A stretch of DNA of 34,417 nt from contig MEPR01000083.1 in assembly GCA_001769835.1 (NCBI GenBank), forward strand, positions 13,025 to 47,441, written 5' to 3'. This DNA comes from Bdellovibrionales bacterium GWB1_55_8. Its GTDB lineage: Bacteria > Bdellovibrionota > UBA1018. Shown piece by piece: positions 33,200 to 34,417 of the stretch. Position 1 is the first letter of the stretch. Every line of letters starts with the position of its first letter. Below the pieces are notes generated by a model that worked only from the letters and a program-made list of their open reading frames with translations, made no database searches and was not told the origin of the DNA. A program made the position numbers and the translations under genes.

Positions 33200-33226
33200 T
33201 GTGTGAAGAAATAGTTTTTCCGTCAT

Positions 33227-34417
33227 TTGGAGAATGGTACGAAAATACGAATCGTAACAGCACTTTTATGCTTGGGCATCGCAGGCGGATTACAGGTCGC
33301 ATTTGCGGCATCAGAATCCCCGCAGACTTTCACCTATCAGGGTGCGTTGACGAATGAGCAAGGCACGGCCCCTGCTACTGACGTCGTCACGATCCAGGTC
33401 GGCATTTATGATCCGAGTGGCTACTGCTTGCTCTATCAGGAGACGCAAGGTCCGATTGATCTGGCGGTTACCTCGGGTCTGTTTTCGATTCAGGTGGGTT
33501 CTCATACAGGAGATCCGAAACGCGATGCGGGAACGGACCCAGCGATTCCGATGGCGATGGTGATCGCCAATACGGGAACCCAGTTGAGAGCCCCAGGTCC
33601 GAATTGCGCGGGCGGTTATACGCCTGCTGCTGGCGATATTCGTCTGATGAGATTTTCGGTAACCCCGCAGTCCACTGGAGTGACCGTAACGCTTTCTCCG
33701 GATCAGATTTTAGGTTCAGTGCCTCAGGCGCTCGTCGCCGAAACGCTTCAGGGCTTGGACCCAGCGGATTTCATTCTGGTGAACTCAGCGCCTGGTCTGA
33801 CTCAGCTCAATGTCGAATCGCTGACGAATGGTGCAGAGGCGTCGAGTCTGCATCATCACGATGCGCTTTACGCGAAGCTCGGGACCAATGGTTCGATCAG
33901 TCTTTCGGATAATGCAACACTCGGGCTGGGACACAGCTCACCGAATACGACGGGGTGGGGGGCTACGGATGCGGGACGTACCTGGTACGACTCGGCCTCC
34001 AATCAGATAAAATACTGGGATGGTTCGGGAGTGCAGTCGCTCGGAGTTGCGGGTTCCGGGTTGCAGTCCTTGAATGGGCAAAGCGGCGGCACTCAAACGC
34101 TAGCGATCGGTACAGCGGGTTCTTCGCCTGGGTTTTCGAGCGCGGCAAACACCCACACTTTGAATATTCCCATGGCCTCGAGTGGGGGAGTTACAGCAGG
34201 CCTTCTTTCGAATACCGATCACGCCGCGTTTTCCGGCAAAGAAGAGGCGCTCACTTTTACCGCGCCGATTACTCGGGCGGTCAACGCGATCAGTATTCCT
34301 CAGGCCACCGGAGTTGCTTCGGGATACCTGGATAGCAGCGATTACATCAGCTTCAATAACAAGGTGAATCGCGCGGGTGACACGATGGGTGGAACTCTCA
34401 CGCTGTTCACGGGCACG
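33227..34417 (+). CDS. Large exported fibre-like surface protein (5' part, runs off the window)
   Basis: The frame is open from 33227 to the window end (397 residues seen). A signal peptide (KIRIVTALLCLGIAGGLQVAFA) is followed by an N-terminal beta-sandwich-like domain (FTYQGALTNEQG...IQVGIYDPSGYCLLYQE...GLFSIQVGS, about 27-165) of the kind heading large secreted proteins of Bdellovibrio-type bacteria. Then come Ser/Thr/Gly-rich stretches with motifs LHHHDALYAKLG, TWYDSASNQIKYWDGSGVQSL, LLSNTDHAAFSGK, GYLDSSDYISFNNKV and AGDTMGGTLTL, which are typical of phage tail-fibre stalks. It is probably a trimeric surface fibre or adhesin. The only in-frame start before the signal peptide is TTG 33227; an ATG at 33234 is out of frame by one base. 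Confidence 0.8.
   Translation, partial: MENGTKIRIVTALLCLGIAGGLQVAFAASESPQTFTYQGALTNEQGTAPATDVVTIQVGIYDPSGYCLLYQETQGPIDLAVTSGLFSIQVGSHTGDPKRDAGTDPAIPMAMVIANTGTQLRAPGPNCAGGYTPAAGDIRLMRFSVTPQSTGVTVTLSPDQILGSVPQALVAETLQGLDPADFILVNSAPGLTQLNVESLTNGAEASSLHHHDALYAKLGTNGSISLSDNATLGLGHSSPNTTGWGATDAGRTWYDSASNQIKYWDGSGVQSLGVAGSGLQSLNGQSGGTQTLAIGTAGSSPGFSSAANTHTLNIPMASSGGVTAGLLSNTDHAAFSGKEEALTFTAPITRAVNAISIPQATGVASGYLDSSDYISFNNKVNRAGDTMGGTLTLFTGT

Follow-up and report, generated by a model that had tools for sequence, protein, structure and literature searches.

A gene for a probable very long MAT-type surface fibre in an uncultured lineage of the Bdellovibrionota

The mosaic adhesive trimer (MAT) proteins of Bdellovibrio bacteriovorus are surface-displayed fibres known for sensing prey, the architecture of which has been shown experimentally (PMC10769870). 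Bd3182, a MAT of 922 aa that is ~550 Å long, undergoes processing of its S74 domain, again shown experimentally, and one B. bacteriovorus MAT binds Proteus glycans (PMC10769870). Bd3182-type MATs of strain HD100 consist of a signal peptide, an N-terminal beta domain of ~130 aa, a stalk with capping-loop motifs and a terminal S74 domain carrying an SDxxxK motif, and they are encoded by many paralogues per genome (PMC10769870). The gene described here shares these features from the beta domain onwards, and its product has a signal-peptide-like N-terminus. However, its product is 2183 aa long, as compared with ~1,000 aa typical of B. bacteriovorus MATs (PMC10769870), the N-terminal domain is ~35% identical to the Bdellovibrio form, and the host lies outside the Bdellovibrionaceae. 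The score of 100.6 bits against the NCBIfam model NF053851 (Bdello_MAT_N), as compared with ~200–255 bits in the best members from the genus Bdellovibrio, indicates a divergent member; the protein is thus a new addition to a known family, in which its length is also unusual. A C-terminal self-cleaving chaperone and a trimeric beta-structural style of stalk also occur in phage S74 fibres and tailspikes (endosialidase, 6f45). Unlike these, the present gene is chromosomal and its product has a putative signal peptide for export and a cell-surface type of N-terminal domain instead of a virion-binding domain.

The window, i.e. the whole stretch of 34,417 nucleotides that was analysed (G000:C83:13025–47441), comes from the genome of an uncultured lineage labelled 'Oligoflexia', not from Bdellovibrio. 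The genome is ~96% complete, and the kinship data of a phylum-wide scan place the host outside the Bdellovibrionaceae in a different class, with metagenome assemblies named 'Oligoflexia bacterium' and 'Bdellovibrio sp.' as its named relatives. The fibre gene starts near the end of the window (Table 1). Its frame has no stop between TTG 33227 and the edge of the window and includes the HHHDALYAKLG, LLSNTDHAAFSGK and AGDTMGGTLTL motifs. Which codon starts the gene is uncertain. After the TAG codon at 33212–33214, in-frame starts begin with TTG 33227, but GGAG at 33229–33232 overlaps this start, and ATG 33234 lies in another frame that closes after seven codons. An assembly gap of 53 N (L006:3443–3495) follows directly on the last base of the window. 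Past the gap, the same frame remains open up to a stop codon at L006:8801–8803, 5.4 kb beyond the window, so that the frame does continue as originally predicted and gives a full protein of 2183 aa, including 18 unread residues in the gap. Chance origin of the open reading frame is excluded by matches above the cut-off to curated models.

Table 1. Positions of the fibre gene and its parts in the window and of collagen-stalk paralogues in the same genome.
Feature	Position	Strand	Basis
MAT fibre gene, first 397 codons	33227..34417	+	ORF list and extension into contig G000:C83
Signal-peptide-like N-terminus LENGTKIRIVTALLCLGIAGGLQVAFA	33227..33307	+	By eye; ends in a cleavage motif of the AFA/AS type
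MAT N-terminal beta domain, residues 24–186	33296..33784	+	NF053851 match
Hinge motif EASSLHHHDALYAKLGT	33839..33889	+	Motif listing and translations
Proximal stalk, tail-fibre-like repeats YDSASNQIKYWDGSG, LLSNTDHAAFSGK, GDTMGGTLTL	33890..34417	+	Sequence
Collagen-stalk MAT paralogue	L016:7944-9620	-	PF01391 above cut-off
Collagen-stalk MAT paralogue	L030:4174-6084	-	PF01391 above cut-off
Collagen-stalk MAT paralogue	L008:3344-5404	+	PF01391 above cut-off
Collagen-stalk MAT paralogue	L010:6124-9747	-	PF01391 above cut-off

The part of the gene in the window, taken alone, gave no match in Pfam or PHROGs, and information came only from the full-length protein and NCBIfam. By eye, the N-terminus has a basic n-region and a hydrophobic core ahead of the AFA/AS site. 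It is followed by the MAT N-terminal domain, for which the full protein gave an NF053851 match of 100.6 bits (7.7e-29) against a curated cut-off of 60 bits, spanning model positions 6–161 of 162. This domain is 35% identical to the MAT domain of a Bdellovibrio-like genome (G073), and profile-profile comparison with MAT N-terminal domains of the genus Bdellovibrio gave a probability of 99.7%. Thus, the relationship with Bdellovibrio fibre proteins, for which a comparison of this domain had been proposed, was borne out. A single-chain model of the domain (window positions 33308–33877) showed a beta fold over construct residues ~8–137 with pLDDT mostly ~80 and a modest overall confidence (pTM 0.60), consistent with the N-terminal beta domain of the original prediction. 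Foldseek revealed no match of the model in the PDB at E ≤ 0.001, which agrees with the report that the MAT N-terminal domain has no PDB homologue (PMC10769870). In BFVD the model was weakly similar in fold to small (~110 aa) uncharacterised Caudovirales proteins (best E 4e-4), and the weak matches also included a probable tail fibre protein. Weak profile matches of the domain to PDB sequences of designed Ig-like proteins were taken as not meaningful.

The hinge motif that follows is common to the paralogues on contigs C51 and C16 and to the relatives L092–L093. In the stalk, the capping-loop motif VGIGTxxPxxxL gave 13 regular-expression matches, ~12 of them convincing. PDB sequence matches to the fibre, namely 8ond (Bd2133) and the chain of 8ojn, 8onb and 8onc, were aligned on the capping loops. 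The latter chain, labelled 'cell wall surface anchor family protein', is taken to be Bd3182 from its annotation and the MAT paper. A further match was to 6f45, the distal subunit of a phage long tail fibre. The fibre repeats expected for the complete gene are therefore present and match solved Bdellovibrio tips. An S74 chaperone had been guessed to lie outside the window, and Peptidase_S74 (PF13884) was indeed located at residues 2051–2107 of the full protein with 71.7 bits (cut-off 22 bits). The domain starts with SDARLK, which fits the SDxxxK motif reported in the S74 domains of MATs (PMC10769870).

The host genome includes 11 places matching the MAT N-terminal domain and four S74 domains. 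Contigs end inside MAT genes (C80:1, C51:1, C23:1 and the ends of C15 and C45), so that 11 is a minimum and the true number is likely to be higher; the breaks are probably due to shared modules that disrupt assembly. Modules common to the paralogues mostly share 71–84% DNA identity. Identity of 91–99% is limited to stretches of ~80–90 bp, and therefore these data do not demonstrate recent swapping of tips between paralogues. Across the phylum, NF053851 was matched above the cut-off in 89 of 291 genomes, and the strongest matches belong to genus g73 (Bdellovibrio by inference), which shares only the phylum with the host and lies in another family. One paralogue that reaches a contig end (L007:3–3104, minus strand) carries Gly_rich_2 (PF21722) on its C-terminal side and is possibly a further tip type. 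In addition, an S74 protein of up to 156 aa (L015:8188–8655, plus strand) stands alone, with no obvious signal peptide or fibre part, as an orphan chaperone domain.

At least four paralogues in the host genome, to which the fibre gene in the window does not belong by type, have the MAT N-terminal domain followed by collagen repeats (PF01391 above the cut-off; two on C21 and one each on C15 and C45), and one of them also includes S74. Collagen-like MATs were found in other members of the host family (G125 and G074) and in a genome of another family (G121), which encodes L104 (1863 aa, with S74) and L107. None of the collagen-positive proteins examined in four genomes of the genus Bdellovibrio was a MAT, the word 'collagen' is absent from the main text of the MAT paper (PMC10769870), and a literature search for collagen-like proteins together with Bdellovibrio gave nothing relevant. 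A triple helix of the collagen type would fit well with a fibre built of three chains. The collagen-stalk MATs are the freshest lead of this analysis and the most unusual thing seen in it.

Taken as a whole, the gene very probably encodes a very long trimeric cell-surface fibre that belongs to the S74 branch of MATs, and its binding partner may or may not be prey. By analogy with the characterised MATs, the signal peptide would export the protein and, as in B. bacteriovorus, the N-terminal beta domain would be located at the cell surface. The long stalk is expected to fold as a meandering trimeric beta-helix with VGIGTxxPxxxL capping loops, as in Bd2133 and Bd3182. At the C-terminus, the S74 domain would serve as a trimerising intramolecular chaperone, in line with its motif, and would then cut itself off at Ser2051 to leave the mature adhesive tip. 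The resulting fibre may attach to another cell or surface through glycans exposed there or through other epitopes of the envelope, and by simple scaling from Bd3182 its reach could be ~1300 Å.

Two other explanations concern the integrity and the origin of the gene. The join spans 53 unread bases in an assembly in which several MAT genes sit at contig ends, and an N-terminal MAT fragment could have been scaffolded to an unrelated downstream S74 protein. However, the frame matches across the gap, and the spacing from G-x-T-M-x-G to DGT(N/S)L is 43 residues here and 45 in the intact relatives L095/L096, which supports the join and makes two separate genes very unlikely. The phage-like style of the stalk, the S74 domain and the weak fold similarity to Caudovirales proteins are also what a remnant or captured tail-fibre gene of a prophage would show. 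Against this, the protein has a signal-peptide-like N-terminus, its MAT N-terminal domain is restricted to the Bdellovibrionota within what was searched, and the window part is blank in PHROGs. A scan of viral contigs with a profile of the N-terminal domain gave no relatives and tblastn of the fibre protein against phages gave no match. The neighbours are cellular, as had been predicted, with nothing phage-like among the flanking genes and no phage structural genes following. Upstream are genes for an MCP, MotA, MotB, a TIG-domain lipoprotein and, on the minus strand, an exported protein that has no Pfam match and by eye consists of LysM and a beta-barrel; downstream are genes for an exported protein with no Pfam match, an FHA protein and an ankyrin protein. 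A prophage origin is therefore scarcely credible.

The use of the fibre is far less settled. The original prediction of an exported tail-fibre-like protein that recognises prey or host is supported as regards the MAT fibre (NF053851, S74 and repeats), whereas prey recognition stays putative: the host is not Bdellovibrio and kynA is absent. The published predator signature is kynA+, waaL+ and gntR−, with kynA in 14/14 predators (PMC4646340). No kynA match (PF03301) was found in the host genome, whereas the gene is present in three MAT-rich Bdellovibrio control genomes. Within the host family, kynA was found in two of seven MAT-bearing and six of nine MAT-less genomes tested, so that it does not track the presence of MATs, and only in a shorter form (an open frame of ~270–330 aa, as compared with 361–385 aa in the controls). 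On these grounds, prey recognition is only a putative role of this fibre. A fibre used for other purposes (surfaces, biofilm, particles or eukaryotic hosts) by a non-predatory or facultative bacterium is a real possibility, to which we give somewhat less than an even chance. It is consistent with the kynA data, with the patchy occurrence of MATs in the host's own family (10 of 35 genomes) and with the MAT paper, which allows MATs in bacteria 'predatory and otherwise' (PMC10769870). On the other hand, gntR (PF00392) likewise gave no match in the host genome, as in predators, and the eleven paralogues, which differ in their C-termini, resemble a repertoire for recognition. Moreover, the kynA marker comes from a training set of 14 predator genomes (PMC4646340) and the host genome is ~96% complete. 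The isoprenoid-pathway markers of predation, Dxr and HMG-CoA synthase, were absent from all 19 genomes, including the Bdellovibrio controls, and are thus uninformative. The absence of both kynA and gntR neither proves nor excludes predation.

The MAT fibre described here takes the MAT repertoire well beyond the genus of its original description and into an uncultured lineage of unproven predation. A MAT-rich genome that lacks kynA separates the two readings, and the question of whether MATs mean predation becomes testable. Tentatively, and as the less probable outcome, MATs may serve the Bdellovibrionota as a general toolkit for surface recognition, which non-predators also use and have expanded with stalk types of their own, such as the collagen-like stalks of the paralogues. 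If so, the recognition of prey by Bdellovibrio would represent one specialised application of this toolkit.
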